A stretch of 64,000 bases of DNA from Sipunculus nudus (lineage: Eukaryota; Annelida; Sipuncula; Golfingiida; Sipunculidae): contig CM049306.1 in assembly GCA_026874595.1 (NCBI GenBank), positions 44,082,019 through 44,146,018 of the forward strand, given 5' to 3'. The position numbers and the translations under genes are program-made. This document shows, piece after piece, positions 26,207 to 62,820 of this stretch. Every line of letters begins with the position of its first letter. Position 1 is the first letter of the stretch. Below the pieces are notes generated by a model. The model saw only the letters and a program-made list of their open reading frames with translations, made no database searches and was not told the DNA's origin.

Positions 26207-26820
26207 TTATATGCAACATTGCGCGCCATCTCCGGTGTTGTCCTCCGCAATGCGTCTGTTCTGTAGCATCTTCATTATCACGTCCAGCATGGGCTGCCCG
26301 CACATGGCCCTAGTGGGGAGATCACAAACTAACGACAGCTTGTTGAAGTGGAGTCCGGTGGGGCATCTCTTCAGCGTGGCCTTGTCGTGCACGCAGTGGT
26401 AGAACTTCGTGCAGTCTTCGAAATGAGCGAAAAGACCGTACGGTTTGGGACACCTGTACCCTTGCTGACCCACTATATCACAGTTGGCCCTGTTGGGGAA
26501 ATCGCACGTCAGAAGCACCTTATTGAAGTGAAGATCTTTTGGACATTGCATGTGTTTTGGTTTGTTCTGGAAGCAGATCCAGTAGCCGATGCAGTCTTTC
26601 TCGTGTGGGAAGATCCCATTTGGTTCTGGACAGTGGTAGCCGGCTGTCGCGTCCTCCACTGCACACTGGACGTTGTATGGCTGGTCACACATCTGGGTCT
26701 TGTGGTTGTAATAGAGACCTTTGGGACAAGCCACCAGTTGCTCTTGACACTGACACTGGTAGAAGCGCCGACAGCTGGTTGGGTCAACACGACGTTTACC
26801 ATCACAACTGGAGCCCTCTC
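26207..26820 (-). CDS. Gene A exon 17: three CBM14 chitin-binding domains and stop
   Basis: The acceptor ATTCTTCCAG starts a 614-base coding exon. Domain 1 starts CDGKRRVDPTSCRRFYQC, domain 2 CPEPNGIFPHEKDCIGYWIC and domain 3 CPKPYGLFAHFEDCTKFYHC. Each has six cysteines in the CBM14 spacing; domain 1 has the compact QCQC variant. The tail ends GDGAQCCI-stop. Frames open on the plus strand across this exon are shadows. Confidence 0.95.
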
Positions 26821-29800
26821 CTGGAAGAATTATTATTGAACAGATAGACCGCTCCGAAACCACAACAGCAAAATTATTGAGAGCAGAAGAGCGACGACAG
26901 TTTAACGATCTGCCAAGGGCCACAAAAATCCCCATCTCTTCTCGTACTATCAAGTTTAATAAAAATTAACAGGAAATTTCAGCAGGAAATGTACTTAAAA
27001 AAATCGACTTCTTAAATATATTTAAAATTTTAAGAATTTTTCTATAGTGTTAGATGAATTTTAAAACTGCGACATTCTTGTTCATGCAAAACTTGCGTAA
27101 ATTTTAGTGTGAATTGTATAACACCCTTTATTACGTTTACTTTTATAAAACATCTTACCTGGAACGATCGGGTACTTTGTAGATTCTTGGTAAATGCCAG
27201 CGTCTGGTGAAGGTCTTGGCACAATGCCAGGTAGAGTTTGTACAGTCCCGTCGATAATGATCAGCATTTCTGAAAAAAAAGCTCATTACTGGAAAAGCAC
27301 ATTTAAAGAGACATTTTTAGGTAACGAGGTTCAAATAAAATTGCCTTGGCAAAAGCCATGTATATAAACAAACTAAAGTAATATGAGAGTGACAGATTGG
27401 GTTTCGACCAACACAGGTTAATTTTACGCAACAGCCACATCAAATGAGATTATTTCTCTGTCGGGGAGCAATATTTTCAAAACTGCACCATACAACATGT
27501 GCACTGTACAACATTCCCTAAATATAACATTTAGATTATAGTTGCAGATCTTTTTCAAACCCAGGACGTTCCTACATCGCATAAAAATAAGTTTAGACCA
27601 ACTACCAAACCTTATCGGCCACAGCAACTATACTCACGTGGATGAGCGCACATGCGTTTCCAAAGGTTTCCAAATACGGGCCAGAACCGGGTAAGTGTGG
27701 GACAGGTTTTTACTTCATTCATACAGGAAGTCAGGGAATTTATGTTCCTGTAAGGAGGTACACAAAAGTCATTTTTAAAATCACAGATCTGGTTTACATA
27801 GATCATGTAAACGAAACTATAAAATTCTTAATGTAAACGAAACTATAAAATTAAGAATTTTAAACTTATAACACTTATAATACCCGTTAACTAATTGTTT
27901 ATTAACACGAGGTTTCTAATTAGACGAGGTTTCTAATTAACCTATGTTAAACTAACCAATGATACCTAGGTTTAGGTTAATCTAAAATTTCATAAAACCA
28001 ATATTAGAAAACATTATGAAGCTAACTAAAAGTACTTAAGTTTACAAAACAATAGCATTTTATTTCCCTTTTAAATCCCTGCCTTTTTATTCACTGCAGG
28101 AAATGCCGAATTAATTCCCATACGAAACAAATTCACCACAAATAGTAAAATAGGTTGTCAAAATATTTTTTAAGATTTATACCTGCATGTAAAGGCCATG
28201 TTACCCATGTTGAAGCACTTCGACACTCCTACCACACATTTCATATCGATCATGGCGGCATTCAGAAGATCTGTCACGAGATTTTCCCCTTTGACGACAA
28301 CTGAAAAATAGGCTAAAAATATTCAGGCTAAAAATATTCAGACATTATCTAAACAGAAAATTTTCCCCCTCCCCGTATGACAGTTGGGCCCGAGATTGTC
28401 GTGTATTAGCAGATTGCCTTATTTGCAAGATTAATATTTGGTAGTTTTTTTGCAAGATTAATAATTGGTAGTTTTTATGTTACCATAGAGAAATGTACAG
28501 GGCCATATTTTAAGTACTATTCCAGGCAGCCTTTGGGGGAAAAGGCAGGAGGCAAATTAAGGCACGAGACTTGCTTTGAAAACACTTCTAAATGGTATAG
28601 TTCCAAGGATAAGTATAGCGCGAATTTCTAATTCCAAAAAGATTAAATCCTGGATCTGGTCAGGTTAAAGTCAATGCTGTGCCACTATGTCGGGGTTTTA
28701 CAGAAAAAAATGAAAAGTTTCACCCTATTACAGACCAGCATGTGAACAGGAGATTCTGAGCCAGGATTCCATGCGAGTCCAGTAATTAATCAGTCCTGAG
28801 CAGCCATCTGTCTGAGCGACACAGTGGAACACTTCCTGGGCATTACTGCAAACAAATAGACACTTCGGCTACAAGGGATCCAAGAAAAGAAAAGTTTATG
28901 ATCCAGGAAGAGAAAAATTGCCCTTTAGATCCCTAAGACCACTTAAAAAGACTTCCAAGCTAATTGAAATTGCTATCCAAAATAACAAAATTCCCCAAAG
29001 AACTTAAATGTGGCTAAGGCATATATGGCCCATTCGTGGGCAACATTTTTTGGTAATTCCCCCCCCCCCCCAAAAAAAAAAACCCTCGTCAAACAACCAA
29101 GAAACAAATATTTCTTACCAGTAAGAGTTCCTTACCTACAGATATCAATCACCGTGCGCCCTTCGATACATTTCTTCACATTCTTCAAGCATACTTGGTT
29201 GTCCTTCTCCACATCTTCAATGATCGCCATCAGAGATTCCGTGTGTACCTCAGTCTGGGATGCCTTGTATTTCCAGACCACAATCTTGCCAACTACAAAG
29301 AAATAAAAAAGTACTGTATTTTAAGGTTTCATGGATTAAGCCCTATGTTATAGGTTCTTTAAGGACTAAGAACCCAAAAGTAAACTAGTCAAGAGCTCTG
29401 CAGCATCCTAAGTAAACCTGATCTACTGATGGAAATTTAATATCTTATCCCATTCTGCTAGTAACCTGAAATATTTAAGGCAAGGTTAAATTAAGTTCCA
29501 CTAAATACCATATTCTATCAAATACAAAATTTCTGAAAGTTTTCGCGTGACTTTATGAAAAAAGACGCTAGCCCATACCATACACTAGCCCATACCATAA
29601 CGAGACCAGTTTCATACCATAATGATACTAGTAAAAACAAGTGGCCCATAGACCATAACGCTCAGCTAAATTCAAGGGGCCTTCAACAGGGATAAAATTA
29701 CTCCCCCCCCCCCCCCCCTCCCCCTATGCGCTCAAAATAATACATTTTGCTAATAAACTTTCGATATATAGATTACAGTGACCTTAGTCTACATCCAGCT

Positions 29801-32067
29801 GCTACCATTGATGCCCATCTTAACTAAAAGAATGGTAAAATAATGTTCCTGCATAAAGCTTTCAGAAAACAGGTCAGAGTGATATTTCGGGCTTTTCAAA
29901 GATTCTTATAGACCAGACCTCCTTGAAGGTAATGTCTGAGGATTCTGGGCTAAATGGATACAATTTGTGCCCCACCTGACTCATTAAAAATGCTTTTCTC
30001 CCCTTACTGGCAAAATATAGGTCACCATGACCTTATTTTGGGTTGGCAGAAAGGTTTTTCATTGACCTCCTTGGATGTACAGTTAGAAGTTTCTAGGTCT
30101 TACGGTTATGAATTGTACCCTGTTAACGGACGGCTAGATGGCTGGACTGACAAATGACTGCTAGATGACTGACAACTGAAAAGGTTGATCGCTATAGCTA
30201 AGATTACTTAAGTCATCAAGACTTAAAAATGCCGGAATTTGCTAAAACAAATTGTGTAAATTTGCTAAAAATTATGTAAAATTTACTATAGTAAAATGCA
30301 CGGTCATGGTTCAAATTTACAATAGTAAATGTAATGTCAATGTCATCGTTTACGTTTTTGGCTCTTACCTGGGTAGCAGCAGAATTCTCTTAGAAGACCA
30401 TCCAGCATTTCAGCGTGCTCAGATATAGTTGGACAAGAAGTCATTGAGCCAATGCACTCCTTTACCATCCACCTGGTCCTTCTGTAAATTGGCATTTTGT
30501 TAATCGATTACCCTTCTTGCTGCTTTCCTTATTTACCTTCATTCACAGAATTAAATTACTGGCAAGCATTTACAAGTGCTACAAAATCTAAGCTTTAATC
30601 CTGCCTCAAGATCAAAACAAACATTTCCCCCCAATATTTACCATAGTAACAAACGCCTCAGTATATACTCATCCTTATTACTCACTACTACATGCTCTAA
30701 AATTTACTCTTCCCCAAACCTGTTAAAATAATCCTAATGTATTCTTAAAATTCAAATAATCCTAATGTATTCTTAAAATTCGATGTAACACATTTTTTAT
30801 TATTATTTTAATATTACTCCTTTTAAACTGCTCTTAAGATTTTCTTTATCTAAAATAATAAGTTAAGGTAAAAGGATCCCAATTACCTTTTAGGATATTC
30901 CCATTAACTTAAGATTGGATAATACATTCGGTAATTAACGAAATAGACACATGGTAGCTTCGACCAACTCACCCGCATCCCTTGTCCACGTTCTCATAGT
31001 TAAAGCATCTCTTCAGCTGGTCCAGACAAACTGGCGCGTTGGTACGGAAATGTCCGAAGTGTTCGATCAACGTCTTGCCCACGTATCCAACTAAAAAGGG
31101 GTTCACCACAGTAAGGGTTTGTATACAACAGATCTAGGCTTTAAGATGACAAACTATTCACCTTGAAAAACAAACCAAGCTTAAGGCAAAATCATGACAA
31201 TTTGATACACTAATTACAAACTTCTGCCAGCATTGCTTCATGCAGAACTACAGTTTTGAAATGTTTGGTCCTCTAGGTTTGATCAAACATTTTGGTTTAT
31301 GCATTGAACAGAAGACAGGTTTAGGTTTAGGTTTAAAAGAGGCTTAAAAAGGTGGGTTTACTCCAAACTGAAAGTCCACCCCTTCCTCCGAGGTTATGTC
31401 AGTCATTGAGAAGCGACCAAACCCAGCCATAACTAATGTACCTGGGTGGTAGCAGTAGTCTTCCATTGCCTTCTTCAGATGGGGCCAGTACTGGAGGAGA
31501 CTTCGACAGCCTCTTGCCTGTGCAATACAGTAAGTCATATCTGCCGCGTGACTACAAAGACAGAACGAAAATATAGGACTACAACTATAGGACTTCAACT
31601 GGTCACACTGACAAATTGTGGCCAGTTTCTTTTCTACCGGGGTAGTTCTATCTAAAGTTTTTGCTTTGAGTAACGAGTTTATTCATGCAGTGGCCCCAGC
31701 TTATGCATGCAATGGTTCCATAAAGGTAGAATACAAAATTACTAAGAAAATTAATCGTGTACTCAAAGCTGACATTGTATTGTAAATTGTTAATCTTATT
31801 AGTAAAAGCGCAGTTACGGCCAATTAGTACCTTTGTTTTGGATATTTATGATGGACAATTATAGATATACCTGTATGCTGGAGTCAGATCGGTCACAAAG
31901 TAAATTAAAAAAAAAAAAAATCCCGGTGCATGGGTTGTTCATCAACCAATGAGCTACTCGCGTGAAAGTGAACCCTACCCATCCCCCACATACACCCCCA
32001 ACCAGGGGCGTAGCCAGGATTGAGGGAGGGGGCCGAAATATTTGGCATATTTAATCTAAGCGTTTAA

Positions 32068-32105
<38 letters not shown>

Positions 32106-35100
32106 TTTATATTATATATAATTATTTATATATATATAATATAACACCTCATGTTTAACACCTCATGTTTAATTACAATAAGAAATATCAGTTGTACAAG
32201 ATGAATAAAAACAAAATTTCAGGCTCAATTTTATTAAATTAATAATAATAATTAATAATTAATAATAATATTTTTAAATTATCAATTAACATACATTATC
32301 AATTAAATTACATTAATTACTGCATGTGCAATGCTTTATATTAAAATGCATCCTAAATCTGCTAATACCAGTGAGAAATTTCATGATTTTGTTTTAGGAA
32401 ATTTAATCACTGTTAAAGCGAAATTCCGGGAGGATGGGGAGTACTGGATTTGACCCCTCCCCCCTTGGCTACGCCCATGGCAGCGCCCGTTCAAGCCCGA
32501 CTTACGTGCATTTCCTCTCCATGGGGTACTTGACGAGGCAGGTCATGAGACTTCTAGTACAGACGCTGTTCCCCTTCTCCAGCTGAAGGATTTCGTCCAG
32601 CAGGGACAGACGTTTTGTTTGATCCGTTTCCACCCCGGGTACGTCTGTAGGCCTGACTGCCAATTCCCATTTTTTACCGATCAGAAAGTAATTGTCTACG
32701 GACGGAAAAATTAACATAATCAAGATTTTTCTCCATGGAAATTTCAAGTGTATGAAATTTTTCAGCAGTGGTTGAAAAAGGAATGTAAGCGGGAAAAAGG
32801 AAACTAATCGTTAAAGATTTTGAAAAGTGATTTTTGTTAAAACCATCTGATATATTAGCATTTACACGAACATTGACCATTTGCCAAATAATTCTTACGC
32901 GGTTCCACTGTTTATGACAAATGCGTCAAGAGATTTTTTCTCCAGGACTAGATTGAACTGCCAGGCTGCGTTGAACAAACGTTATAAGCGAAACGATTGG
33001 AGTTTTCTTTTTGTGGTAGTTTGTGGCAGAAAAAGCGAAAACCAGGCTTACGTGGCCTTAAACGTAACCTTACGCATGCCCAGCCAAGAACCTAATTAAC
33101 ACGACTGGTTTACCCTTTTCTCGGCACACTTTGAAGAGCGTGTCTATGATCACAGGAATATGGCGTTTTATTTCTTCACATGGCTTCTGGAGACATCCGA
33201 CAAGGTCATTCAGTTTTCTGAAATAGAAAGAATTCACATTTACACGTCCCGTTCCAATTTATAATTGAATGCAAATCTAACGACCCAAGATGGCCGAATG
33301 CAGCTCTGACCAACCATTAAAACCCAGAAAGACATTTCCACACTGGAAAGCTAAACTAATTGACATTAACATCCTTTTCGATTTTTCAAGCTGAATGTTT
33401 CGATATTTCAAGCTGAATGTTTGGCAAACGTTCTAAAGGTCCCATTTACCGACTACTGTACAGTGGTTGTCAATGTCGCCGCTAACCAGCGTTTAAGAAA
33501 CCCAAAATGCGTGCAAGCCTTTCGGGTTAAAATAATTAATTTAAGTGCGAATGACTACAATAAAACCAAGTGCGTTACATCCTGTTAACATAAAAACAAT
33601 TTACATCCTGTAAATTATAAGTCAAAACAAATACAAATATATGGCACTAACTGCACACCCTTTCAAAATAGTCCCAAAACAAGTTAAGGCCGCCTTACCC
33701 ACAAGTGGCCAGAGGATTGTTGACATCAAGACATGCATGGACGGCTGAGGCACATTGAAGGTTGGTGCGGAGCTTCAGCATGATCTGGACCAGCTCTTTT
33801 CCTACGATCTTTACTGTAAAATATACAAGTGAGAAAAAGTCCCATGAATAGGGTTTTTGTTTTCACGTCTGACGCGAGTAATACGAAGCGCATTTTCGAA
33901 GCAGTATTAGACAAGATAAAATCTAAAAATTTAAAAATTCTAGAAATTCAGTTTCCTGAATTTTAAAGCTATGTTATTTCAAACTTACTGAAGATAACAT
34001 TTATAACGCTACATTAATAACCTTCCAGTAAAACGCTACATTAATAACCTTCCAGTAAACAACTAAAAGGCAAACCCCCGCAATTAAGTTAAACAGCTCG
34101 TAAATCATACTGGTGTTTTTCAAATACCCCCCCCCCCCATATTTTATACACAGGACCCCCACGATTGTGTGAACAGTTGAGAACTATTCAAAATGCCTTT
34201 TCAAGCGTTCAAAGAGGAGAAGGTTACCTTGATTCGGGCATGTTTTAAGGAAGGCGTCATGAATAATCGGCCAGTACTGGGTCAGGTATTGGCACTCTTG
34301 TGACGCTTCAATACATTTCACGAAGTCCTCTGGTTTACTAAATAAATACAGAAGCAATAAATACAGAAGCAATTTTTATAAGTAGGTTTACTAAATAAAT
34401 ACAGAAGCAATTTTTTATTACTCATAACATGATATGGTAAACAAATAAGCAAAATAGAGTAAACCATATAAATATAGAACCAAACCCTATAAATAGGGAA
34501 CCGGTTTGACAAGCTAAACGCATCTCGCATACCACAACTCGCGTAATCTTATTTTAGAATCCAAGCAATTCCACACCTACCCCGTATTTTTTCAAACCTC
34601 TTAACCTTAAAAAAACGTATCCTTAAATGCCGCTGTTATACACGTCCAAAGATTCATTGACTAGGAACAGATTACAATTCACATATAAAATGATATTTCA
34701 TATAAAATGATATTTTATATTCAAATATTTAAGTGCGGATTATCCATTTAAATTAAAATCATGCGAAGGATTTCAAACAGCAAAATAGAGGTTACCTGCA
34801 GTAAGTATTCCTTGCGTTCTGATGGCATTGCTGGATTTTTTCAATGCACACGTGATTTTCCTTTGTCAAATCCAGGACAGATCTCAGCAAATACGGCCTT
34901 TCACCAAGGACAACTGGAAGTGGTACATCAACTGGTACAGATAAATGGCCAGTGAGAATGCGTGTAACGAGACGAATTAAGTTGTGTTCACTAAAACGTA
35001 ACACAACACGTAACTAGCTAATACTACAATTGACCAATTTTGAATTTTGTTTATTCAATACCGTGTTTTATGCATTTTATTCTAAAATCTGGGTGTAAAA

Positions 35101-37991: not shown

Positions 37992-38074
37992 CTGGAATGA
38001 GAAAAAATTGTTGAGCAACATTTAACAATGATGGAAGACTTCACAGAGCGCTCAAATCGGGCGTTCTTCATAGG

Positions 38075-38083
38075 CCTTAAATA
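38075..38083 (-). promoter_or_regulatory. Possible TATA box of gene A
   Basis: TATTTAAGG on the minus strand lies about 85 bases before the gene A start codon. It would fit if the 5' UTR is contiguous with exon 1. The acceptor-like sequence beside the ATG argues for an upstream exon instead. Confidence 0.2.
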
Positions 38084-38460: not shown

Positions 38461-38499
38461 CCCTACCAGTTTTTACGAAATTAAACACTTCATGATCAA

Positions 38500-40302: not shown

Positions 40303-41280
40303 GCATGGATGTCTGCAGCCAAAATGTATATGTAGGTTGCGCCACCTACCACAAATGCAGAAAGCTGTCACATAAATGTAGGTGGCACCACCTGCCAAGA
40401 AAAAATCGAGAAAGCAATCCAAGATGTATAAACACGCAAAATCTTTAGGCAGATAAGTCAAACTACTACAGAGATATGAGTGATTTTAGCCCACGGCAGA
40501 CAAACAGACAGACGCTGTGCAAAAATGGTTACAGGTGACCCCTCCAGTTTTGTGTATGATAAAGAGCTATGTGATATCTATACACATGCAAAATGTTGAC
40601 CTTATCGGTCAATCGGTTCCCGAGATATGAGCTTGGATGTCTGCACCGTAAACGTGAATGTAGGTGGCGCCACCTGTCATAAAATCCAGAAAGCTGTCCA
40701 GGATGTATAAACCTGCAAAATTTTAGGTAGTTATGTCAAACCACTACAGACATATGAGTAATTTTATCCTACAGCTGACAAACAGACGGACGCTGTGCAA
40801 AAATGGTTGCAGGAGGCGCCACCATTTTTAGTGTATGTTATAAAGGTATCCAAGGGCTACATTTGTATAAAATGTTTAGCCTGATTGGTCAAACGGTTCA
40901 CGAGATATGAGCTTGGATGTCTGCAGCGTAAACGTGAATGTAGGTGGCGCCACCTGTCACAAAATCGAGAAAACTATCCAGGATGTATACGTATGCCGAA
41001 TTTCAGGTGGATAAGTCCAACCAATGCAGAGATATGAGTGATTTTATCCCAAGGCAGATGAACAGATGGACGTAGTTCGATAAATGGTTGCAGGTGGCGC
41101 CACCATTTTTAGTGTATGTTATAAAGCTATCCAAGGGCTACATTTGTGTAAAGTTTTTAGCCTGATCGGTCAAACGGTTCCCGAGAAATGTGGGTTTATG
41201 TGTGGAAACAGACGCACAAATGGACGCAGGGCGCAGAGGAAAGGTCAGAAGTCAAAACAAAATTGGGGCGCAGCAGTTCA
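40303..41280. repeat. Tandem array of about 282-326 bp units with a palindromic core
   Basis: Unit starts (GGATGTCTGCA-CGTAAACGTGAATG) are at about 40303, 40629 and 40911, with a partial unit to 41280. Units carry AGGTGGCGCCACCT, a perfect 14-bp palindrome, at 40662-40675 and 40942-40955, and degraded forms at 40385, 40812 and 41094. Each unit also has GAGATATGAG and GACGCTGTGC. A 41190-41609 frame through the array end is not taken as a gene. Confidence 0.85.
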
Positions 41281-47890: not shown

Positions 47891-47899
47891 CGATTATTT

Positions 47900-48715: not shown

Positions 48716-51700
48716 CTGAAAATAATCCTTACATTACAAACGTTTGACATATCAAAATTAACCATTCACTTGATTCTTTCTTTATCAATTAAGCATAAAA
48801 AATTGCGAATTTTCCAAGCATTATACGAAGCATTAACCTGGATTATCCCAGCAAGAGTAATATATGTGGCTCCATTAACTGAAGTAGCTTCTGTTAACCG
48901 AAATAGCTCCTGAACACTGACAGACTCCATTTTTATGCAAGATAAATCTTAAAAACACATAATAACATTTGTAAATATAAATCTACAATTGTAATAAAAA
49001 GTGTAAATGTAGTAATAAAAAGTGTAAATGTAATAAGTGTAAATGTAATAACAACAAAACCGTATAAGAGAGATGGCTCAACGTCCCCAAAATCTAAAGT
49101 TCATCAGAATTAGGTTGACGAGGTTTGCTAAAACAGTCCTTTGTCAATGTCCCAATGCCACCCCATGTCCCGAGGTCACCCGATTCTGATCACATTTGAA
49201 CATTTCGATATCTCCCTATGTCTCCCTGTACGACACTGAGCAGTCTTGTGTAGATAACCTCTTTAGGTTAATGCTACTATACTAACCAGGGGTAACTGGT
49301 GGACTGGTCGGGTAGGTAGGATAAGGACGAGGTCTTGGGGTCACTAATGGACCTTCAGTCACGGGTGGTGGAACAGTTGGAAGAGGTTTCAATACTGCAA
49401 CGTCAATCACGTACATCTTGTCTGGAAAAATAAAATAAAAATATTAGATTCAAATTTCACCGATCAGAAGTGAAATTAAATATTTTATCCTTAGATCCGT
49501 CGCTCCGAAATATTTTGGCCATAAGTTGACTGACCAAACCTTAATTGATTTAATCCATACGTCACATCTCAGCTTTTTGAAATAGTTGTACAATTACTTT
49601 ATCACTTTCACACTAATCTTAGAATGAAGGATTCAGTTTCCCCTGTATTGCTCTTCTAAATAGTTATGGAAACTGCACTGCTCTTCTTTAAAGTATCTCC
49701 GGAAGAATTATCCCGACATTTTATGTTTCATCGAATTTTAATCCTTGGCACGAGTGCCTTCGATAAAATTCTTCACAAGTCAGCTCTTAGATGTCCACAT
49801 CTTCAGACCCTTTACAGAAGCTTATAATTTGGATGTTTATATCTAATTCAGACACTCCGCACTGAAGGCTGCCAAGAAACATCGTCAAAATTATTGGACC
49901 ATTTTCTAAATATCATCCATTCCCCCCCCATAAGTTTGATCACCTACCTTTGTGTGCGCACAGGCGTTTCCAGACTATATCAAATACTGGCCAGAAGGGG
50001 GTCAGCGTCGGGCAGGTTTTTACTTCGTTCATACATTGGGACAAATTGTCAATTTTACTGAAATGATAACGTGATCCGTGAGATTAAGCGTGAGAGTCCA
50101 GGTTATTTACAATCATCTTATAAATCCTCCCTGGTCAGGCAAACAAGTTCTAGGTTAACGTAGGTCCGCTCAACTAACCAATGCATGCAACAGAAGGTGG
50201 AGTCCGTAGCCAAAGTAAAGTGGCCCTTGGGGGTCATGACGCTCAGCTGAATTTGACATACACGTGCTGCATGTATTAATTTTTAATGTCATTGTGAAAA
50301 ATTGTAAAAGAACCTTTATAAATGGATAGAATGACATGTCACAGTGACCTAATTTCATGCGTCCCTGGACATTTGCCAAGGACCCCCCTAATTATTTTTA
50401 AAGAAGATTTTCGGCCTAATCTATTATTAGAAATTATGCCCCATCTGACTGTCTGGGTACAACCTCCCAGGATATACAATTAGACGTTTCTAGGTCTAAC
50501 GGTTACGATTTGTGCCCTGTTAACGGCCGAACTGACGACTGAAAATGGGTGATCACTAAATCTTAGATGACTTATGAGCTAAAATAACACTGAATGGTTG
50601 CATATCCAACTAATGCAGTCCTGTCACAATAACATGACACGTGCTCCAATTAAACAAAAAAGCAGTTTGCTTTGAAATGTCAAGCAAAAAAGTGCAAACA
50701 TATACAGTCATCCCCCATCTTTCAACTGTTTGCTGCACTTTTTTAATACTTATACATATATACAGCCCCACATGCCGGATAAATAGGTCCGCCATCCACA
50801 AAGGGACATTGATGATCCACAACTTTGTATGCAAAAAGTAAATTTTAGGCTTCCACATGCCTTAACATGCATAGTTCTTGAACCTTTTTAAAAACATGCT
50901 TTACACTTTTACAAATTGTGGAAATTCTTGTCCTTGCTCGACTTTGCGGCATCATAGATATCATAGATAGATATCATAGATAGATATCATAAGTAATACT
51001 CTAGGTACATTTTCACTGAAGAAGAGAGGGAACCTGAAAAGGTCATTTCCCTTTAATCCTGACTATTTGGCAGGAATGGTAAAATCAAGCCATATCAACC
51101 TTTTGGTGGTAAATATTCACCCAAAATTTAGATCTCTAAGGCCATTTACCTGCATGTAACCGCCGGGTTCCTCCGGTCAAAGCAGTTTGACACTCCCCTG
51201 ATGCATGTTGTATCAATCATGGCTGCATTCAGAAGGTCTTCTACAAGTGCCACTCCCCTAATTATCACTGAAAAGGAAATATAGATGCAAAAGGAAGAAG
51301 AAAGGATCTAAATAAAAAAAATATAATGAATCCTTGTTAAAGAGATTGCTGCTACTTTGCGAAAATTTTTAAATGAATACTTAAAAATACTTCCATTCTT
51401 GCATGAAATTAAAATTTGTTACGTCCAAAAGGACTACAGTGACAATTTATCATTACTTTGATATTCATAATAAAAAGAAAGTTATGCGTGACATCCTCCA
51501 GTACAATACATTTGTTATGTTTCAATACAATCTGAAATTTGTATTTACGACCAAATACGACTAAATAACGAGATGACAGTATGACTGAACGACAAGGAAA
51601 TATGAGACAAATGATAAAATGATACGTTCAGAAATATGAGGCAAATGATAATCAAATCTCCCCCCCCCCCCCCGGGTAGTCTGATTATCAAATCCCCTAG

Positions 51701-54700
51701 TATTAGGAGGGAGAAACATTTAATATCATTTATGCCTGTTAACATGCATGCTAGCATTTGTATTACAATTTTGAGCCTTTTAACAAAAAAAGTTAACAGC
51801 AAGTCATGGGATTTTTTTTTCGGAAAAAAACCACAGTGCCCTAAGGTGACATATCTACCGACCAGGTTCTGGACAAGTCATATGGACCCAGCTTTCCATC
51901 ATCGTCCAGTAATGGATCAGTCCTGCGCAACCATCAGTCTGTGCAATACAGCGGAACACATCCCAGGCATTTCTGAAAGACAAGTCTCCCTAAATTTCAT
52001 TTCGTTTCAAATGAAAACTGAAGATTAGGCCTTATCTTATCAGGAGAATTAAGCCTTATCAGGAGAATTAGAGGAGAATTAGGCCTTATCAGGAGAATAA
52101 GGCCTTATCTGGAGAATTAGGCCTTATCTTATCAGGAGAATCTTCGGAAGGCATCTGTATTAAACATTTCGACAGCAATGATTGATATCAATACCTAGGC
52201 ATTTTAATACTGGCTAAAGGTTCAGTGATAACCGGAATAGTATTCGTTACAGGTTCCTATCATGTCTTACGTTTAAAATTAAATTTTTTTTTTTAAATAT
52301 GCTCGACTAAAACTATCAATGGTCAACCGCATGTATAAGCATGATTGAACTTTGCAGGAAGAATGTTTACAAGGTACTAGTAATCAATATTCCCGATAAA
52401 AATCCAGTGAACAAGAGCACCGCAAATGCGTGCATATTACGCCTTTCGCATATCTGGTGTCCTCTGACCTCCAGAAATAGGCCTTTTCGTATGATAGAAC
52501 TAGAAGCCAACCAAATGCTAGTTAAACACTCGACAGCACAGATCTTTGGGGGACCATTCAGCGATAAGATATTGGCCTGATCTCTCAACAATCACCTTAG
52601 CCTCGAAAAAGGAGTTTGTGTAAATGTTTGGGAGATCCTGTGCGCTCGTTGTGCGATCAAAAAATCCAATTTTCAGCAACTTTCATGGTGATCTACAGAG
52701 ATCTTTGAGCGACCTTGCCGATCATTGAGCGCTCATTGAAAGCTACCAATTAGAGTGTTGAGCGCTCGCAGTGGCGTTATTGTTTTTCAATGGGGGTATG
52801 ATCTTCGAAATAATTTAAGGAATTTCACAACACTGATTATGCCGTAGTTTTGTATTCCCCTCACTGATTTATCAAACTAATGTATTAAACTGTAAAGGTC
52901 ATACAAGAGAAGAATTCATTCAAACGTTGTCAGGAGGAGTGATAGCCAAGCTATTTCTTAATTTGCGACATATTGATATTGTTTGCCCAATGAAAGTGAA
53001 AATTCAAACTAAAACTAATTTTTCTAACTGATCAGTCATTGTTGGGTTACCAAATACTAGTGGCACCAACAGTTGTCATGTTAAGGCAAACAGCGACTTA
53101 CCATTGGATAAAAAAATGTGTCAAGGATAAATAAAATCTCATTTACCTATAAATCCATTTACCTATAATTCTGTAGAGTTTTATCTGATAACTCATACTT
53201 AACATTTCTAAGCAATGCTTGCAAATATTAACGTTGATCCTGAGTAACCTCTCATCTACTAAATTTTGATGTTTGCACATTTTTATTATTTTCAACGCTG
53301 TGAGATACTTAAGGTTGCCACAAACCACATCTAATAAATAGTTGCAATTAATCAGAAGTAATATTCAGGTAATCAGAACGGCTTCTGTTGCTCAGGGGTA
53401 GAGCGCAGGGAGATCGCGAGTTCGAATCTCAGCGGAGGCGGTGAGATTTTTCACGTCAACTCCACCCAGGGTGAGCTTGATCGGGAGACTGACAAATTTA
53501 TTTAAATTGTTGTATAGGTATCTTAGGAAGAAATATGCTACACTTATTACCGCAGGCTTGTCTATGAGCGGTCACCATGAACCTCGTTCTTTCTGACAGT
53601 TATCACCTACCCACATATCTGAGGGGTTGTACGGTTTGCGAAGCATTTTCTGACGATCCTGACGCACTGCTGGTTATTCCTTTCTTTTTCTTCAATGATT
53701 GATAGAAGTGAGAAGTCCATAGGAAGTTCCCCCGTGCCTTCGATGAACTTGTATTTCCAAACTACGATTTTACCAGCTGCAATAAAATAAACAGTTAAAA
53801 ATACATAGGTTCATGTTTAATATTCCTGCCATTCGGTACATGAAAGGCTTAAATCTTACTCTTAAAATTTAAGAGTTTTTGAGTACTCAAACCGCAGAAC
53901 ATCTTTCTACAGTAAAAACTTCTGCAACAATTCTCTGCGCCTCATCTACAGGTTTCTTTGCGAACCTTTTAAAATATTTGCATGAAGTTTCCGTTTATTC
54001 CCAAAACCCCAGCCATTCAAATAATAACAGTTTCAAATAATAACAGTTTTAAAAAGTTCCAAGGAGAAACATTCCAGATTCCTAGGAGTCTTGCTCTTAG
54101 GCAGCTAATAGACAAATTTGTCAGTCTCACGCAATGATCTATTGCTAGTTTCGCTCAACGCCCAGAGTCCTTTGACATGTCCGGTTAGCACTACACATTC
54201 AAAGAACACTACCAATATAATTACAGTATCATGTCAGAATATTGAGACAAATATGAAGAACAAACCTGGGTAATAGCAGAAATTCTTCAGTAGCGTTTGC
54301 AGTTCTACAGAGTGTTTCGCCATGTTGGGACATGTATTAATTCCAGCAATGCATTCCCTCACCTTCAACCAATTTGTTTTTCTGCAAATATAACAAAAAA
54401 ATCAAGGAAACTCAACAAAGAAACCCCCTTTTTGCCGCTAGACCAAGATCTCAATGGTGTAGCATAAAAAGGGGAAAGAATTTGAAAGGCAAGTCTAAAT
54501 ATGAAGGGTAAATCTAAATTATATCAAACAAAACAATTCTGGATTCAAATCTGTTAAGTTTTTTTTTCATTTTTGTTTTATTTATTTATGCTATTTTCTA
54601 AACAATATTTTCATTAATTTGACATTTTCAGTTCTCCTTAATTAACACTCAATTTCTTTAAAATATGCAACAAATTTCCATTCTCAGTTTTATTTCAGAT

Positions 54701-57700
54701 GTTCAGTAGTATTGGAAACAAAGGGTTATCAGACTTTTCAAAATCTCATAGCGATGTTGCGAAGTACTCACTGGCAAGATTGTGCAGGATAATCGAAGTT
54801 GAAACATCGCTTGAGGTTTTCCAAACAAACCGGCTTGTGCATTCTGACGTGTAAGAACTGTTCCATCAGAGACCTCCCGTCGTATACGACTAAAATACCA
54901 AAAGATCTATAGATATCATGTAGGAACTTTGACAGAATCAAAATTCTTAAATCATGTTAAAGGGTCAAGTGCATTCGCTTTTGATTTTACCGACAAGACA
55001 AATCTACTTTAAAAACTTTGAGAACCCCTCAAAGCAGCACCTTTTCAGCAAAACACTTAAAGCAGCATCTTACAGCCGATCACAAGGATAGGAATTACAT
55101 CCGCCATTCATTTTTATGTATGCGACAATCAAGCTGTTAAACTCCGCATTTCTGAGATGAAAATAAGTTTCACCCCACGTTCAGATTAACCCCCTCATAT
55201 CGATCAGGTGTTTGGGCTTTGTGTGCTGAGAAAATGCGAGGGGGACCAACCACACTACCAACTGAAGCCGCCCACCCACCTTCCTCCCCAGAAATATGGT
55301 CATCTGTTCGACCAGCCCCCCCCCCTCCCTCAGGCCAACGCAAGGCAAACCGTACAAAATTTCTCTAACAAGGTATAACCTTTCTTCATTCCCACCTCAG
55401 CTTTTATTTCAATCATACGAAAATAAATTTAACAAAGTTTTCAGCACTTTCATAAACATTTACTTCTGATCATTAATAATTCAATGAGACCATGCGTAGA
55501 TACAAAAATTAACAAAGCAATTGTAACAAGCAATTTCGTGGAATTAATGTCCTCCACTTCCGCTTATTGTTGTCATTCATGCTTGCCTTGTGTTTGTCAT
55601 TCATGCTTGCCTTATATATGTTTTAGTTTTTATTTTCGCCTGATGATGTCTCTACATGTCCTAGAGGCCGTTTTAGTAGTGCCCTGAGATGTCTCAACAC
55701 GTCGTGGTTTTGGTTTTGAAATAGGAAGAAAATTGAAGATTTCTTTTGTTTTGGAGCTGGTGGGAATACTATGCATGGAATGCATGAGAGCAATCCGCGA
55801 CCAAAATTTGAATGAAATCTGATAATATTTTGGGAAGCTATTGCACGGAAACGAAAATCTGATGGACTGACAGAGACAGCTAGAGAGACAGAAGGACAGA
55901 CACGACTGACATAGCCAAATCAATGTCCCCCGCTCAGAGGAAGCGGGGAACCAAAAAATGACTGAAATGAGTTTATAAAATATGATGAATGATCTTTAAA
56001 TTTTAAGGAAATAAAAACGCAACTTAAGTGAGGTAGGCAATAGTTACTTTGTGCCTATTCCTTTAAAATAGAGGGGCAAACGTCCCGTTTATGATTGTTC
56101 ATTTAAGCCACCGAAGTTTCCTTGCCAAAGGTCCCGAGTTGCTTTCATCCGATTTAAGTGTAACAACTGCATTTAACAAAGATTTATATGGTGATCTTTC
56201 TATTTGCAAAGGTCATCCATTGGTCTTCCAATATATTGGGAGTTGTGGGTACACCCACTTGTAAATTCTGCATTACCTCTAGCTTAAGGTTCGTAGGGGG
56301 ATGGGGCGTTGATTTTTTTTAAAAAATACGAAGGTGTAATTCGTGAACCGCCAAAAACTAATACGTTTGCAACAAAGTTTTACATCTCTGCACTCACCAG
56401 CACGGTAGCAGTAGTCCTCCATCACTTTGGATAGCGTGTACCAATATTCTAGCAGACTACGACAACCTTTAGCTTCCGCGACGCAGTAGGTCAATGCTGC
56501 GGCATTACTGCAAGGCAAAGTTAACCCATTATCCGAAGCAAAACATACTTATAAGTACCCTTGCACCCCCAGAAGAAAATGAAATAAAAAAGTTCTGGCA
56601 ATAAGAAAGTCACCTACAGTCAAAACCAGGGCTGACAGGTTTGCCCTTCCGGCAATTTAACAAAATAGTCTTAACGTACTGTTGGTACCGTTTTATAGTG
56701 TGACGGTGCCACCTGGCGGATAGATCTAATACCAAGCAAATATAACCGCCTGCAAAAAATTCTTCGATCCCTCTTACGACCAAAATATTGCTTTCTTAGA
56801 GTACGCAGCCACTAAACAGATTTTAGGAACCACCTGTGAAGGGTTTCACCGGCAGGCTTAGAAATTAATCCTCAGGGATTACACACTTACGTGCACATCC
56901 CGTCAGTTGGATGTTTAACCACACAGTTAAGCAGGTCCTCCCTGCAGACGCTGTTTTCTTTTTCCAGCTGGATGATTTCGTCGAGGATTGAGTGGCGCTT
57001 GGTTTGGTTCATCAGTCCTGTGGTTGGGGTAGGCATTGGAGTCGCGGCTACAGTGAACTCAGGCGTTTCAGTTGGCCGAGACGCCAGTTGCCATGGATCG
57101 CCGATCACGAAATAATTGTCTATAATTTATATAAACTGGATGAAAAAAAAATTAATTGGCAAATCTGGCATATATCTACATTTATAATTATAAAATTACT
57201 GTGCGGATTGCTACTGCTGACGAAATATTCCAGAGCAATCTTTCAACCTACACTTAAAACCATATCCGGGCAATCAGGTTGTTACTGAACTAAGTTTTCA
57301 AATGCAAATTAACAAATTGTTATCACGTTCAGAAAACGTTTACATTAATTCCAGAAAACTTTTACAAATCTAACAAACTAACAATTAGATCCCTAAAGTC
57401 GTCTATCCATGAGAACATTTAGTTAATAAATTACTTACATTGATCATAGCAGCATGCAGATCCACTCATTAGATCAATCCCAACATCCTAACAGCCCACC
57501 CCAGGTTTCAGGAATATATTAAAGAACCTTTCCTGTCTTATTCTGATTACAGATGGCGCGTGCTTACCCTTGTCTCGGCACACTTTGAAGAGCGTATCTA
57601 AGATCACAGGGATGTGGCGTTTTATTTCCTCACATGGCTCGTGGAGACATTCAGCCAGGTTATCTAGGTCACTGAAATATCAAACTACTCCCAACACAGA

Positions 57701-60700
57701 GAGGCTAGAGAAACCAATACAAAAGCACAGTACAAGTCCGCGAACAGATCAGATTTTACAGATCGGTACCACTTAGACTTATGATACACCAATGCATTAA
57801 ATGTTTGATCTGCATACGGGGTATAAGGTTTTAGAAATTACAAACATGGGTGGGGAAGTACAAACATGGGTGGATGCTCTTCCCCTTCTGTATGGGTGGA
57901 TGCTCTTCCCCTTCTATACAGAGCTAAGGACCTTGTAATATACAATACTAAAAACTATGACGTAGGGCTCATCTGGCATCATATTGAAAGTTGCAAAATT
58001 TGAATTATTAGTGAATTTCAAATTTCTGTATAGAAGTTTTCAATCCCAAAGGGCAATCTGTATAAATATCAGTCTTTTCTATAGCCTATCTCCAGTCATG
58101 ATCAGTGAGCCAAGACGTGGCCTCTGGCTAACCATCTAGTTTACATGAAATGCGTAGTTATTCCGCGGTTTTTTATTAAATCTGCCCCAGATATCATGAC
58201 CTCTGGATAATCCTGCCATCCTGATATAGATATAGTTTATCACTGGATAAAGCTTCCTTAATATTCAAATTGTCCTTATATTTTTTTGTTTGAAAGAAGT
58301 CACGTGAAAAAGCTTAACGAAAAATGAATAGCTGCTTTACCCGCAACTCGCCAGAGGGTTGTCGACATCGAAGCATCTCTGTACCGCCCTGGCACACTTG
58401 AGACTGGTCCGAAGGTTCACCAACAGGAGGACAAGGTCATCACCAAGAATCTTCACTGTAGCAATCAGATAAAACAGATTGTAAAACAAACTAGTTGTGG
58501 TCGGAAAATGGTTTCTCAGAGGGCCCCGCATTCCTGGTAGTGCTGGACTAGTTTACACATGGGTGAAAAGTTTCGGTTAAGGTTGAAAAATGTGACAAAC
58601 AGAAAAGGTTTTGATCCATATGCATGAGGGAATAAATCCTACTGGTTCAAATAATATTAAAGACGATATGTCTGAAATAATGTGTGCAACAGAAAATCAC
58701 CGATTGTACTCGTTGGCCATATTTGATTTTAAGCAAGTCTATATTTCAATATGTCGGAAGCCCTCATAGGCACCAATGATCCTATGAATCTGAGAAAGAT
58801 CAAGCATGTCCTTGTTGAGATTTCAGGTGCGTAAGAAAATTAGCTAATTGGGCTGTGTCGGCCATATTGGAATTCCGAGAGGGTCTGTAATTAAATAGGT
58901 CTGGAGTCCCTGTATGTACCAATCATCCCTGTGAATTTAGGAAAGCTGAAGAATATTGTTGTCGAGTTATCGAGCGTGACAAAAAGTATCACTGACGGAA
59001 TGACGGACAGACTGATCACTATAGGGCATGGCTTGTTAATTATTGTGAAACAATGATTGTTAAACAGCTTCGTTAGGTAAAAGTATGAAAGATATTGACT
59101 GTTTTAATTCCGTAGAGTATAACCCAGGCATATATAAAAGTAATACATTGTAAACAAAGGAAAATGCTAATCTGGTAAATATAATTGTAAGGTCTTAACA
59201 ATACACTAAAATATATTTTAACAAGTACAGTGACAAATTTATATACCCTCCATTTAAAACCTTACTATGTACCAACTTTATCGTCATATATCGTCAAATG
59301 AAAAAAAATCTAAAAATTAAGTTATTTGGATATTTGTTTTTGCAAAATCCACCCCTGGCACTCCGTAAAGGATTCTTAAACCGCTTCATGTATAAAGGAT
59401 TCTTAAACCGCTTCATGTATATAGCAGTTCCAGCTGTTAAAAGATTTGTTGGAACCCATACCTTGTTAATCGAAACCCCGAATGTAAAACTAAAATAACG
59501 ACATAATACCTACAGTGAGAGAATTTGAGCGCTCTATACCTTGGTAAGGGCATGTCCGGAGGAAGGCGTCATGAATCAGAGGCCAGTATCTGGTCAGGTA
59601 CGGACATTCATCTGACGAGCCGATGCAGTTGACCACCTCGTCCGGTTTACTGAATGATAAATTAGGATAAACACAAGGATGGTTGGAAATTAACGTATGC
59701 CTCACCGAAATTAAAAAAAAATCGAAATTAAAATAAAATCAAGAAATTTATGTCATTCGCTCTCGCCTTCCAAGTCTGGGATGACTTTAGTCTCTTGTAT
59801 GTACAAATAGTTTTAACTACGTTCAAAAGATGCCAACCCCTGGCAGTTACTGCAAAAAAAATATAAAAGGGCGTTTGTCCACCGCTAGCGACACCTGTTT
59901 TGTTATTGAAACTAATTGTGTTGATTAATCATATAAAAATGAAATTATTGTTATCTTGTAAGACAGACACTAAAACCAGTCTCAACGAAGAAAGCATGAG
60001 ATCGATCACTGATCCAAATTTGAATGAAAAATCCCAAAATTGAATGAAATTGATTTTTAGGGAAGTAATCACACGGAAACGAAACACCTGACGGACGGAC
60101 ACACAGAGGGACAGACAGACACCCGAAACAATGTCCCCAGTTCCTTCCAAGAAGCGGGGGAAAATCAAATTTACGAGAAACTTTAAAAAATGGTTTAAAG
60201 CCGTTAACGGTTTCCAAAATTTAAATTCATAATACAAATATTGGCTAGATGCAACAATTATTTTCTGAATCTACGGATTAACGGATTAACGAATGAAGAA
60301 TTCACAATACTTGTAATAAACATATTGAAAAATTAAACCTTTCCGTGTTAAAGCTCCTATATTTTAACCAGGTTTGCTCTAGCATTTAAAGTTCCAGATT
60401 TCTGCCTGGTTTGCTCTAGCATTTCAGGTTCTAGATTGTCATCTTGTTTGCTCTAGCATTTAAGGTTCTTAATTTCACCTGGTTAGCTCTAGTTGCCCCC
60501 CCCCCCCCCCCCAAAGAATCCTCACCTGCAGTGAAGTTCGTTGCCACCAGCGTCCTGGAAGCACTGCTGGATCTTATTAATACAGGTGTGGTTATCCTTT
60601 GTCAGGTCCAAGATCTGGTGAACTATGTATGACCTTGTACCAATCGACACTGAAAGGGTAGTGTTTTAAATGAGCTAGAACTACAAAGTCACCGCCGATT

Positions 60701-62820
60701 AAAAAAAATCAATAAAAGTGATGTCAAATACATATATTGTTTGAATTTAAATATACACTGCTGGACCGAAATTCGATGGAAAGAGGCAACTTTGGATCTT
60801 TTGCTGTCAAATTTCAATTTAATTTAAATTTGAATTAATTTAAACAGAAAGAACGTTTAGATCTCAGCACCACAAGTTTAAAAAATCACTGCGGCAAACT
60901 TGGTTGTGCAACAGCCATGGTTATGTCCATCCCACTTAGAGGTTTTAATAACAAGTTTTAATAACCATTTTTAACACTTACAACAAGCAAAACTGAGAGA
61001 CTTTATCTTCCAGACATATCCTTATTTTTATAAATAATCATACAAAATATTAAAACATTTGCACTGAAAATTAAAAATTATTTTTTGGCTCATATCACCG
61101 AAAAAAAGTTCTATCACTCACCTCCACTTTGACATTTCAGGAAAGCCTCATTAAACACTGCCGAAAATCTGGTGTCAAGGTCACAGTTCTTTCCCTCTGG
61201 TGTGGAAGATATGCACTGAATTACCTTTTGTCTGGTCCTGTAAACAAATGCCATATATTGACAAATATTCTTCGTATAGTTTTAAACAAAGCTCATTTCC
61301 GACAAAACTTCTTTCAATGCATTCAATATAAAGTATGTTACTGATGTGATGGATTTACCTTTCGTGAAAGTTTTTTATTTTTATTTTCAGTTTTCCAAAC
61401 AAAACGATCCCGGGAAAGTATTAGGTTCCGACATAACCCTACTTGGCATCTGGCTTACATACCTTTCCGACATAATCCTACTAGGCTTCTGGTTTCTATA
61501 ACTTTCCGATATAACCCTGCTCAATGACCCAAGTCAGCGTTATATTTTAACTGTTTAAATCTTACTTTGCATAAATTAAATGAATTTTAATAATTAACAA
61601 GTCTCATTGTGTTTCCCCGTCATATTTTCTCAACTAATCAACTATTTAAAAAAAAACTGGTTATGTTAATGAAAACCCCCATTTCAAGTAGGTTTTAATC
61701 ACAAAATCCCTTAAATCATTACGCGCAAAAATTAAAACCAGGTACATTATTTCATTCCAAAGCACGTCCCGTGTTGGAAGGCAGAATGCAAAATCTATGT
61801 ATAGGTAATACGTACCCGCACAGCTCGGGCGCTCGAACACATTTTCTGATTATTGTCGTACACGTGTAGTCTGACAGAAACAAGTCCAGCACATGGGTAA
61901 TACGCGTCTTCTTACCCTGAACGTCGGTCTGGGCATCTAAAATTCGTATATAAATTTTCAAATTACACAAAGAAATACGCTAGTATAAAAATACAAAATC
62001 TAAAACAAACCCATTCAGTCGGAAACCGATTACTTTGCTATATTTTCCCTTTCGCAAATTTGAATTATTTCATATATTATCATTTTAGTTTGCAATATTA
62101 TCATTTTAGTTTGCATAAGGTATATTTTTAGAGTGACCAACAGTTAAATTTTATATTGGACCTATTGTCGGGAGATTTCACTTTCCCATTATTAAAAACC
62201 TCTGATACTAAGTTATATTCGAATTCTTTTTCTATTCCAATTTCTACTCAAATATTCAAAATACTTAAGCTGTAATGAAATTGATAGTTTTCTTTTGTAG
62301 TATGAAAACTATCTTGACGACGTTTACAAATGTTTTAGTCCTCAAACGTTATAATATAAAGTGAAATTTTATAATAAAAGTAAAAATTATATATAATTCA
62401 GTTTTATATAGAACTTAATGGTTAAGAAACCGCAAATACTCCCCCCCCCCCTCATACATTTATAAACCCCCCATACATTTCTTTTTTTATCATTTCCATT
62501 AAAAATATTGGTTTGACAGGACCAGGCACATTTTGCACATCCATACAAAGCAGATACGTATACAAAGCAAACTTATACAAACGTTAACAAAGCAAACTTA
62601 TACAAAGCTAACTTCTCACCTGATAAAGCACCAAATAAATTTCCTCATTTAACATGATACATAATTATTTTTTTTACATATTTTACAAATATTTTCCGCA
62701 ATTGCCGAAACGTAAAGAGACTACTTCTCTTCAAATCTTTTCATTTTCTGATTAAATCGGTTACCTGTAACACCGGACAGGAAGAGCACTGCCACCGTTA
62801 TCCACCACAAAACCGCCATT
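48105..62820 (-). CDS. Gene B: secreted seven-module cysteine-rich protein with three chitin-binding domains
   Basis: Seventeen coding exons in one-to-one order with gene A sum to 2568 bases, an uninterrupted 855-codon frame. Residues 1-18 are a signal peptide (MAVLWWITVAVLFLSGVT). Residues 19-607 are seven six-Cys modules with the same spacing as gene A, apart from longer gaps in modules 2 and 5. Residues 608-652 are a Pro/Thr-rich linker that could be O-glycosylated. CBM14 domains are at 657-704, 715-765 and 775-825, and the tail ends CCI. Possible N-glycosylation sites are NHT in module 2, NQT in module 4 and NRT in module 6. Function is inferred as for gene A: a secreted chitin-associated protein. 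Exon phases and all Cys are conserved, so both copies look functional. Larger introns carry a SINE, minisatellites and interspersed repeats. Confidence 0.92.
49287..49421 (-). CDS. Gene B exon 16: Pro/Thr-rich linker
   Basis: 135 bp, phase 1 on both sides. It starts DKMYVIDVAVLKPLP and continues VPPPVTEGPLVTPRPRPYP, then PTSPPVTP. No cysteine; mucin-like composition. Eight codons longer than in gene A. The donor GTTAGT is weak. Confidence 0.83.
49948..50057 (-). CDS. Gene B exon 15: module 7, second half
   Basis: It encodes SKIDNLSQCMNEVKTCPTLT, FWP and WKRLC. 110 bp, donor GTAGGT. Confidence 0.9.
50190..50560. repeat. Interspersed repeat copy in gene B intron
   Basis: GTGGCCCTTGGGGGTCATGA, CACAGTGACCTAATTTCA, GGATATACAATTAGACGTTT and TTGTGCCCTGTTAACGGCCG match the copies at 24540 and 29640. 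Confidence 0.7.
51150..51267 (-). CDS. Gene B exon 14: module 7, first half
   Basis: It encodes VIIRGVALVEDLLNAAMID, then TTCIRGVSNCFDRRNPAVTC. 118 bp, donor GTAAAT. Confidence 0.9.
51863..51972 (-). CDS. Gene B exon 13: module 6, second half
   Basis: It encodes NAWDVFRCIAQTDGCAGLIH, YW and VHMTC. The donor GTCGGT is non-standard at +3, like the gene A donor GTCTGT. Confidence 0.87.
52020..52142. repeat. Minisatellite, TTAGGCCTTATC(AG)GAGAA units
   Basis: About six to seven imperfect 16-24 bp copies of AGGCCTTATCAGGAGAATT lie just upstream of gene B exon 13 in transcript sense. Confidence 0.85.
53381..53500 (+). repeat. tRNA-derived SINE-like sequence in gene B intron
   Basis: The first 61 bases have an A-box-like GCTCAGGGGTAGAGC and a B-box-like GAGTTCGAATC. 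The ends GCTTCTG and CGGAGGC can pair as an acceptor stem with G-U pairs. The anticodon arm region is shortened, so it is not a working tRNA. A non-tRNA body follows, which is the form of a SINE. Confidence 0.6.
53611..53776 (-). CDS. Gene B exon 12: module 6, first half
   Basis: It encodes AGKIVVWKYKFIEGTGELP, then QQCVRIVRKCFANRTTPQIC. GKIVVWKYK is identical in gene A. Donor GTAGGT. Confidence 0.9.
54266..54381 (-). CDS. Gene B exon 11: module 5, second half
   Basis: It encodes KTNWLKVRECIAGINTCPNM and LLKNFC. The C3-C4 gap is ten, one codon more than gene A; this module has lost the YW core in both genes. Donor GTTTGT. Confidence 0.88.
54772..54889 (-). CDS. Gene B exon 10: module 5, first half
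   Basis: It encodes VVYDGRSLMEQFLHVR, then KPVCLENLKRCFNFDYPAQS and Cys 3. 118 bp, donor GTGAGT. Confidence 0.9.
55560..55935. repeat. Interspersed repeat ending in GAAGCGGGG, copy 1
   Basis: 55665-55935 carries CCAAAATTTGAATGAAAT, GCACGGAAACGAAA, a run of GACAGA units and CAATGTCCCC..GGAAGCGGGG. The same order occurs at 59945-60165. A 25-bp direct duplication (TGTCATTCATGCTTGCCTT) precedes it at 55570-55615. Confidence 0.7.
56398..56507 (-). CDS. Gene B exon 9: module 4, second half
   Basis: It encodes NAAALTYCVAEAKGCRSLLE, YWY and MEDYC. 110 bp, donor GTGAGT. Confidence 0.9.
56891..57119 (-). CDS. Gene B exon 8: module 4, first half with Pro/Thr insert
   Basis: 229 bp, 13 codons longer than gene A. 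It begins NYFVIGDPWQLASRPTETP, then an added VAATPMPTPTTG segment and a possible NQT glycosylation site. It ends NSVCREDLLNC and MC. Confidence 0.9.
57568..57671 (-). CDS. Gene B exon 7: module 3, second half
   Basis: It encodes DLDNLAECLHEPCEEIKRHI and TLFKVC. The unusually short C4-C5 gap of four matches gene A. Donor GTAAGC. Confidence 0.9.
58341..58455 (-). CDS. Gene B exon 6: module 3, first half
   Basis: It encodes VKILGDDLVLLLVNLRTS, then LKCARAVQRCFDVDNPLASC. 115 bp as in gene A, donor GTAAAG. Confidence 0.9.
58680..59035. repeat. Two diverged copies of a 160-bp repeat
   Basis: TTGGCCATATTTGA..CCAATGATCCTATGAATCTGAGAAAG recurs as TCGGCCATATTGGA..CCAATCATCCCTGTGAATTTAGGAAAG, ending GACGGAATGACGGACAGAC. 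It lies in a gene B intron. Confidence 0.65.
59540..59649 (-). CDS. Gene B exon 5: module 2, second half
   Basis: It encodes SKPDEVVNCIGSSDECPYLT, core YWP and DAFLRTC. 110 bp, donor GTATAG. Confidence 0.9.
59945..60165. repeat. Interspersed repeat ending in GAAGCGGGG, copy 2
   Basis: AAATTTGAATGAAA, CACACGGAAACGAAAC, GACGGACGGACACAC and CAATGTCCCC..AGAAGCGGGG match the copy at 55665-55935 in the same orientation. Confidence 0.7.
60526..60649 (-). CDS. Gene B exon 4: module 2, first half
   Basis: It encodes VSIGTRSYIVHQILDLTK, then DNHTCINKIQQCFQ and HC. The C2-C3 gap is ten residues. Four codons shorter than gene A at the N-terminal side. Just downstream is a poly-C run at 60496. Confidence 0.9.
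61122..61237 (-). CDS. Gene B exon 3: module 1, second half
   Basis: It encodes TRQKVIQCISSTPEGKNCDL and FNEAFLKC. Same length (116 bp) and Cys spacing as gene A exon 3. Confidence 0.9.
61816..61936 (-). CDS. Gene B exon 2: module 1, first half
   Basis: It encodes DAQTDVQGKKTRITHVLD, then SDYTCTTIIRKCVRAPELC. It is one codon shorter than gene A exon 2. Donor GTACGT. Confidence 0.9.
62765..62820 (-). CDS. Gene B exon 1: signal peptide
   Basis: ATG at 62819-62817 follows CATTCTAG|A. It encodes MAVLWWITVAVLFLSGVT and ends in phase 1 at GTAACC. The WW motif is shared with gene A. Confidence 0.85.

Follow-up and report, generated by a model that had tools for sequence, protein, structure and literature searches.

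A tandem gene pair of Sipunculus nudus predicted to encode secreted proteins with seven six-cysteine modules and three CBM14 domains

Gene models and exon layout

In a 64,000-nucleotide stretch of the Sipunculus nudus genome (assembly GCA_026874595.1, contig CM049306.1, positions 44,082,019 to 44,146,018; hereafter the window), two neighbouring genes lie in tandem on the minus strand and encode putative secreted proteins, in which an array of six-cysteine modules is followed by C-terminal CBM14 (peritrophin-A) domains. Gene A extends from 62819 to 48105 (48105..62819 of the window) and gene B from 37990 to 26207 (26207..37990). To obtain the gene models, exon cores were taken from stop-to-stop frames and joined by a phase-keeping splice search restricted to GT-AG sites. 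Two acceptors were chosen by homology between A and B and not by site score, namely that of A exon 8 at 57119, which gives the exon the start DNYF as in B, and that of B exon 17 at 26820. When these acceptors were set without the homology choice, the models of A and B comprised 821 and 877 amino acids, respectively, and they were replaced by models of 855 and 835 amino acids; an earlier 891-amino-acid model of B, which came from the first splice search, had already been superseded. Each final model consists of 17 exons and a single open frame that has one terminal stop and no internal stop; the exons of A and B correspond one to one, in order and in the phase of every intron. Judged from their sequence, the two genes look real and intact.

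From the N- to the C-terminus, both proteins contain a signal-peptide-like start, seven six-Cys modules (Am1–Am7 in A, Bm1–Bm7 in B), a linker and three CBM14 domains, as indicated by the splice models and Pfam. Exon 1 (62765..62819 in A and 37939..37990 in B) carries the start codon and encodes a segment more hydrophobic than any other in the two proteins, as expected of a signal peptide. The modules of gene A are located at 61122..61936 (Am1, exons 61936..61816 and 61237..61122), 59540..60649 (Am2, 60649..60526 and 59649..59540), 57568..58455 (Am3, 58455..58341 and 57671..57568), 56398..57119 (Am4, 57119..56891 and 56507..56398), 54266..54889 (Am5, 54889..54772 and 54381..54266), 51863..53776 (Am6, 53776..53611 and 51972..51863) and 49948..51267 (Am7, 51267..51150 and 50057..49948). 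Those of gene B occupy 35804..37554 (Bm1, 37554..37431 and 35919..35804), 34228..34931 (Bm2, 34931..34796 and 34337..34228), 33114..33813 (Bm3, 33813..33699 and 33217..33114), 31442..32695 (Bm4, 32695..32506 and 31551..31442), 30369..31090 (Bm5, 31090..30973 and 30481..30369), 28736..29292 (Bm6, 29292..29136 and 28845..28736) and 27638..28300 (Bm7, 28300..28183 and 27747..27638). The linker is encoded by exon 16 (49287..49421 in A, where it is Pro/Thr-rich, and 27159..27269 in B), while exon 17 (48105..48715 in A and 26207..26820 in B) encodes all three CBM14 domains and a terminal Cys-Cys tail.

The CBM14 family (PF01607) was matched with 99.8 bits (E 9.4e-29) and 91.7 bits (E 3.1e-26) in the two proteins against a cut-off of 22.1, with three stretches per protein, and in a genome-wide CBM14 search six of the 91 matches fell inside genes A and B. 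In exon 17 of both genes there are six Cys per domain and a seventh in the first domain. Relatives of this part in the Protein Data Bank (PDB) were chitinases, EHEP, tachycitin and Der p 23; a weak match to PCNA was taken for chance, and a Nepo_coat_N match below the Pfam cut-off also falls on the CBM14 part and not on the modules. An earlier reading of the window from its letters alone (the sequence-only reading) had described complete frames of 835 and 855 codons with 17 exons each, and the fusion of the module array to C-terminal peritrophin-A domains. The rebuilt models returned the same numbers, and the fusion was seen in both.

The six-cysteine module

Each module is encoded by two exons with intron phases 1-2-1: the first exon runs from phase 1 to phase 2 and the second from phase 2 back to phase 1. 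The N-terminal linkers of Am4 (Pro/Thr-rich), Am6, Bm2, Bm4 and Bm6 were trimmed before the module and first-half alignments, with all modules kept. The six Cys, present in 14 of 14 modules, were the sole invariant columns, and the gaps between them were 6, 6–10, 8–10, 4–9 and 16–17 residues throughout. The spacing pattern given by the sequence-only reading, including the invariant first gap of six, thus agreed with the measured gaps in every module. The YWP or FWP core that it had called frequent does exist, but only in five of the 14 modules (YWP in Am2, Bm2 and Bm4, FWP in Am7 and Bm7), hence "often" was generous. Bm5 contains a seventh Cys.

Half-module profiles built from one gene recovered the half-modules of the other (28/28) at E<=7.3e-4, while the best unrelated frame reached 0.15. 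Relatedness between positions was examined in a left-out test, where one position was removed from both genes at once and 400 shuffled arrays with the Cys kept served as the control. The left-out full-module profile gave 33 to 61 bits for all 12 copies of modules 2–7 and 21.4 bits for Am1, whereas the shuffle maxima were 17.5 to 20.0 bits; 13 of the 14 full modules scored above all 400 shuffled arrays. Since these scores exceed those of the Cys-kept shuffles, modules 2–7 are related beyond their Cys spacing. The left-out test was weaker with half-modules; in A, for instance, one half each of module 4 and module 5 stayed above E 0.1. Membership of module 1 is suggested by its position, phases and Cys pattern and by the 35% identity between Am1 and Am2.

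The search for known relatives of the module was negative at several levels, in accordance with the earlier statement that it could not be recognised. No Pfam model except CBM_14 exceeded its cut-off in the whole-protein hmmscan of A or B, NCBIfam gave no match to the first 248 residues of A (modules 1–3), and the profile of the 14 modules found no PDB chain at E<=10. Rfam had no match within the window, and no description of the module was found in the open-licence PubMed Central (PMC) literature, as judged from titles and abstract openings among the matches listed. When the 14 modules were scanned singly, five Pfam families were matched, Feld-I_B in two modules and ACI44, NODP, Paramecium_SA (16.2 bits against a cut-off of 21.2) and DUF3644 in one each. 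The secretoglobin-like Feld-I_B (PF09252) was rejected with 14.9 and 16.5 bits in the whole proteins against a cut-off of 24.1 and a best E of 7.2e-4 in the modules. The Ascaris-type carboxypeptidase inhibitor ACI44 (PF15270) was likewise rejected, as it reached 18.1 bits in protein B against a cut-off of 27, had no match in protein A, and gave E 5.1e-5 in its single module. The carboxypeptidase inhibitor 3fju_B was matched by phmmer to Bm1 only (E 0.0024), and this chain was not found by the 14-module profile. DUF19 (PF01579) and GDNF/GAS1 (PF02351) had one and two matches in the genome, on contigs C4 and C8, respectively, and none at the locus; neither matched a control genome, and both were absent from the hmmscan lists.

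AlphaFold2 was applied to separate half-modules with 14 alignment rows each. In the first half (Am7), helices were predicted at residues 4–17 and 19–28 of 38, with a predicted local distance difference test (pLDDT) score of 77.3 and a predicted template modelling (pTM) score of 0.39, while in the second half (Am6) helices 2–10 and 16–32 of 36 residues were predicted with a pLDDT of 83.3 and a pTM of 0.42. The second half, which the sequence-only reading had called helix-like, is thus predicted to hold two helices, and two more lie in the first. In half-model numbering, Cys 21 and 28 of the first half are inside helix 2 and Cys 38 is at the end, while Cys 8 of the second half is in the third helix, Cys 15 just before the fourth and Cys 33 just after it. 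As each half was folded without its partner, Cys pairing and packing are outside the scope of these models. Since each half-module is predicted as two helices, the module is probably a compact unit of four helices, and its six Cys would form three disulfides.

Duplication history and divergence of the two copies

Proteins A and B share 62% identity over 824 aligned codons, with proportions of 0.23 differing nonsynonymous sites (pN) and 0.63 differing synonymous sites (pS). The corresponding nonsynonymous (Ka) and synonymous (Ks) divergences were 0.28 and 1.36 for all codons, and 0.32 and 2.1 for the modules, the latter Ks being saturated. Modules at the same position were 45–65% identical and were each other's best match at all seven positions, while those at different positions shared 13–35%, in a comparison that did not include B against itself. 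The tree, for which the program warned of long branches, paired the corresponding modules of the two genes at six positions out of seven, four of these pairings being starred, and left Am2 and Bm2 unjoined within one open fork. As same-position modules are the most alike, we concluded that the seven-module gene predates the tandem duplication. The position-specific conservation suggests that each position may have its own job and would not be an interchangeable spacer.

BLASTN comparison of the two gene regions, which span 16.1 and 13.2 kb, gave 15 matches, 14 of which lie on predicted exons and extend at most about 16 bases past the exon ends. Exons 9, 11 and 16 had no BLASTN match between the regions. 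The fifteenth match, of 68 bases, is intronic (near 50528 in intron 14 of A and near 30131 in intron 11 of B) and probably reflects a repeat present in both genes. The CBM14 exon differs less between the copies: 84.5% of its bases are the same (Ks 0.55), and 19 of 61 fourfold degenerate sites differ there versus 81 of 133 in the modules. One stretch of the third CBM14 domain (48332..48231 in A exon 17 and 26434..26333 in B exon 17) is nearly identical at the DNA level, with none of its 13 fourfold degenerate sites differing. Gene conversion between the copies is a possible explanation for the likeness of this exon, the alternative being constraint on it. Exon 7, with 82.7% of its bases the same, also stands above the other module exons.

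Protein searches of the 1.43-Gb assembly, which distant relatives may escape, revealed no third gene copy. Queries with the module arrays excluding the CBM14 part (624 amino acids of A and 609 of B) gave 30 and 29 matches, all of which were in the window, as were all five matches of module 4 of A. Module 7 of A gave six matches, one of which lies outside the window (C1:63097355, E 0.59); most of the Cys are missing there, and it was read as chance and not as a further module copy.

Proposed function, comparison with known proteins and surroundings

Considering these results, our preferred explanation, to which we assign a probability of roughly 55%, is that the intact tandem genes encode a secreted modular scaffold whose CBM14 domains hold it on a chitin matrix and whose modules are its working array. 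The CBM14 triplet would tether the protein to an extracellular layer that contains chitin, such as the gut lining or a cuticle-like or shell matrix. From there the seven-module array may project as a rod or docking surface, hardened by disulfides, and bind other matrix proteins or luminal ligands, while the Cys-Cys tail may cross-link chains. We infer both the anchoring role of the CBM14 part and the working role of the array. Several observations weigh against this explanation. Bm1 did not rise above the Cys-kept shuffles in the left-out full-module test (14.8 bits against a maximum of 18.5), and in the half-module version of this test all four halves of module 1 (E 1.7 to 8.1) and three of the four halves of module 3 failed. 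The models of the half-modules have low pTM values (0.42 and 0.39). Finally, neither EHEP nor Der p 23 is reported to bind chitin despite a CBM14 fold (PMC10619976); since EHEP has three such domains, the CBM14 fold does not guarantee chitin binding.

An alternative is a soluble ligand trap, whose CBM14 triplet and module array would bind something other than chitin, for example microbial glycans or polyphenols from the diet; EHEP binds phlorotannin in this way in the gut of the sea hare. The triplet is indeed present, EHEP (8in3_A) was ranked first by phmmer against the PDB for the third domain (E 1.6e-8), and it is described as binding not chitin but tannic acid, which sits in the middle of the three domains (PMC10619976). 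However, its score adds up weak matches (0.023, 3.5 and 7.9), none of which is as strong as the one match of tachycitin (7.8e-7), a protein reported to bind chitin, and in the same source EHEP has two linkers besides its three domains but no module array; we regard a ligand trap as quite unlikely. It is only somewhat unlikely that the module belongs to a known family of helical Cys-rich proteins (DUF19, GDNF-receptor or secretoglobin, for example) from which it has diverged so far that it was missed by the profiles. Both halves are predicted to be helix-rich and weak matches to Feld-I_B, ACI44 and 3fju_B were obtained, but the whole-protein matches stayed under the Pfam cut-offs, the 14-module profile found no PDB chain at E<=10, and the DUF19 and GDNF models, neither of which matched a control genome, matched elsewhere in the genome and not at the locus.

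Finally, the gene models might be artefacts or decayed copies, in which unrelated Cys-rich exons were linked by the choice of splice sites. The splice search was given core peptides to join and admitted GT-AG sites only, hence these two features are not independent evidence, and two acceptors were set by homology. Nevertheless, the agreement between the copies in the count and succession of exons and in every intron phase, the location of 14 of the 15 A–B DNA matches on predicted exons and a Ka well below Ks make this highly improbable.

Rather than a system of a new kind, the chitin-anchored scaffold would be a variation on a known theme, the CBM14-tailed modular matrix protein, because CBM14 is joined to other modules in molluscan shell proteins (PMC11291548, PMC3374290); the new part is the module unmatched in Pfam. 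Pif/BMSP shell matrix proteins are also modular, and most are described with CBM14 downstream of other extracellular modules, but they have VWA and many also have laminin G or Sushi domains (PMC11291548), none of which was found by Pfam in A or B; for VWA there was no match at E<=10 in either protein. The chitin-binding proteins of the limpet shell matrix are reported to combine CBM14 with SRCR domains or to have ten CBM14 domains with Pro-rich motifs (PMC3374290). They resemble A and B in that CBM14 is combined with repeated copies of a second module or with Pro-rich spacers, but their partner module is another one. EHEP, a 25 kDa polyphenol-binding protein of Aplysia kurodai, shares the three consecutive CBM14 domains (PDB 8in3; PMC10619976) and differs by its description as domains and linkers only. 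Tachycitin (1dqc), which matches the third domain with E 5.5e-7, has a CBM14 fold as well, but it is a 74-residue chain without a module array. It is possible, although we state it tentatively, that the module represents a new domain family, with four helices, three disulfides and a fixed exon pair (1-2-1), which forms a seven-unit array of individually conserved positions tethered to chitin by CBM14, in a class of matrix proteins not yet described.

Invertebrates build their chitin-based layers with secreted modular proteins that are commonly anchored by CBM14 and vary in the partner modules. With no match in Pfam, conservation in two gene copies and a clean correspondence of exons to modules, the present module would be a new and well-defined unit to express and solve, and its definition could help to name uncharacterised proteins in shell, gut and mucus proteomes.

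Between genes A and B lies a tandem array of 2.9 copies of a 280-base unit (40375..41190). Elsewhere in the window, a coding frame of BBIP10 (BBSome subunit 10) was found on the plus strand at 12648..12938 (E 2.2e-30), and an exon with an EF-hand pair, which we would read as calmodulin-like, on the same strand at 22071..22421 (E 2.2e-16). For the minus-strand frame 1127..1456 the Major Facilitator model MFS_1 gave a weak score of 32.8 bits (E 4.7e-8), slightly short of its cut-off of 33.4; the frame 3419..3847, taken for part of the same gene, has no Pfam match. A search of the assembly for the molluscan hemocyanin family, run with no positive control, gave no match. In the assembly as a whole, bacterial-type COX1 genes were detected on contigs C60, C61, C62, C66, C72, C74, C75, C89 and C123. 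Nine copies with an open frame of 577–578 amino acids and near-equal scores are distributed over eight contigs and a different one is on C123, and the search also gave one short fragment with a stop. The COX1 of C60 is at most 58% identical to the best 80 relatives listed from GTDB genomes. We read these contigs as those of a symbiont or contaminant, perhaps of several strains.

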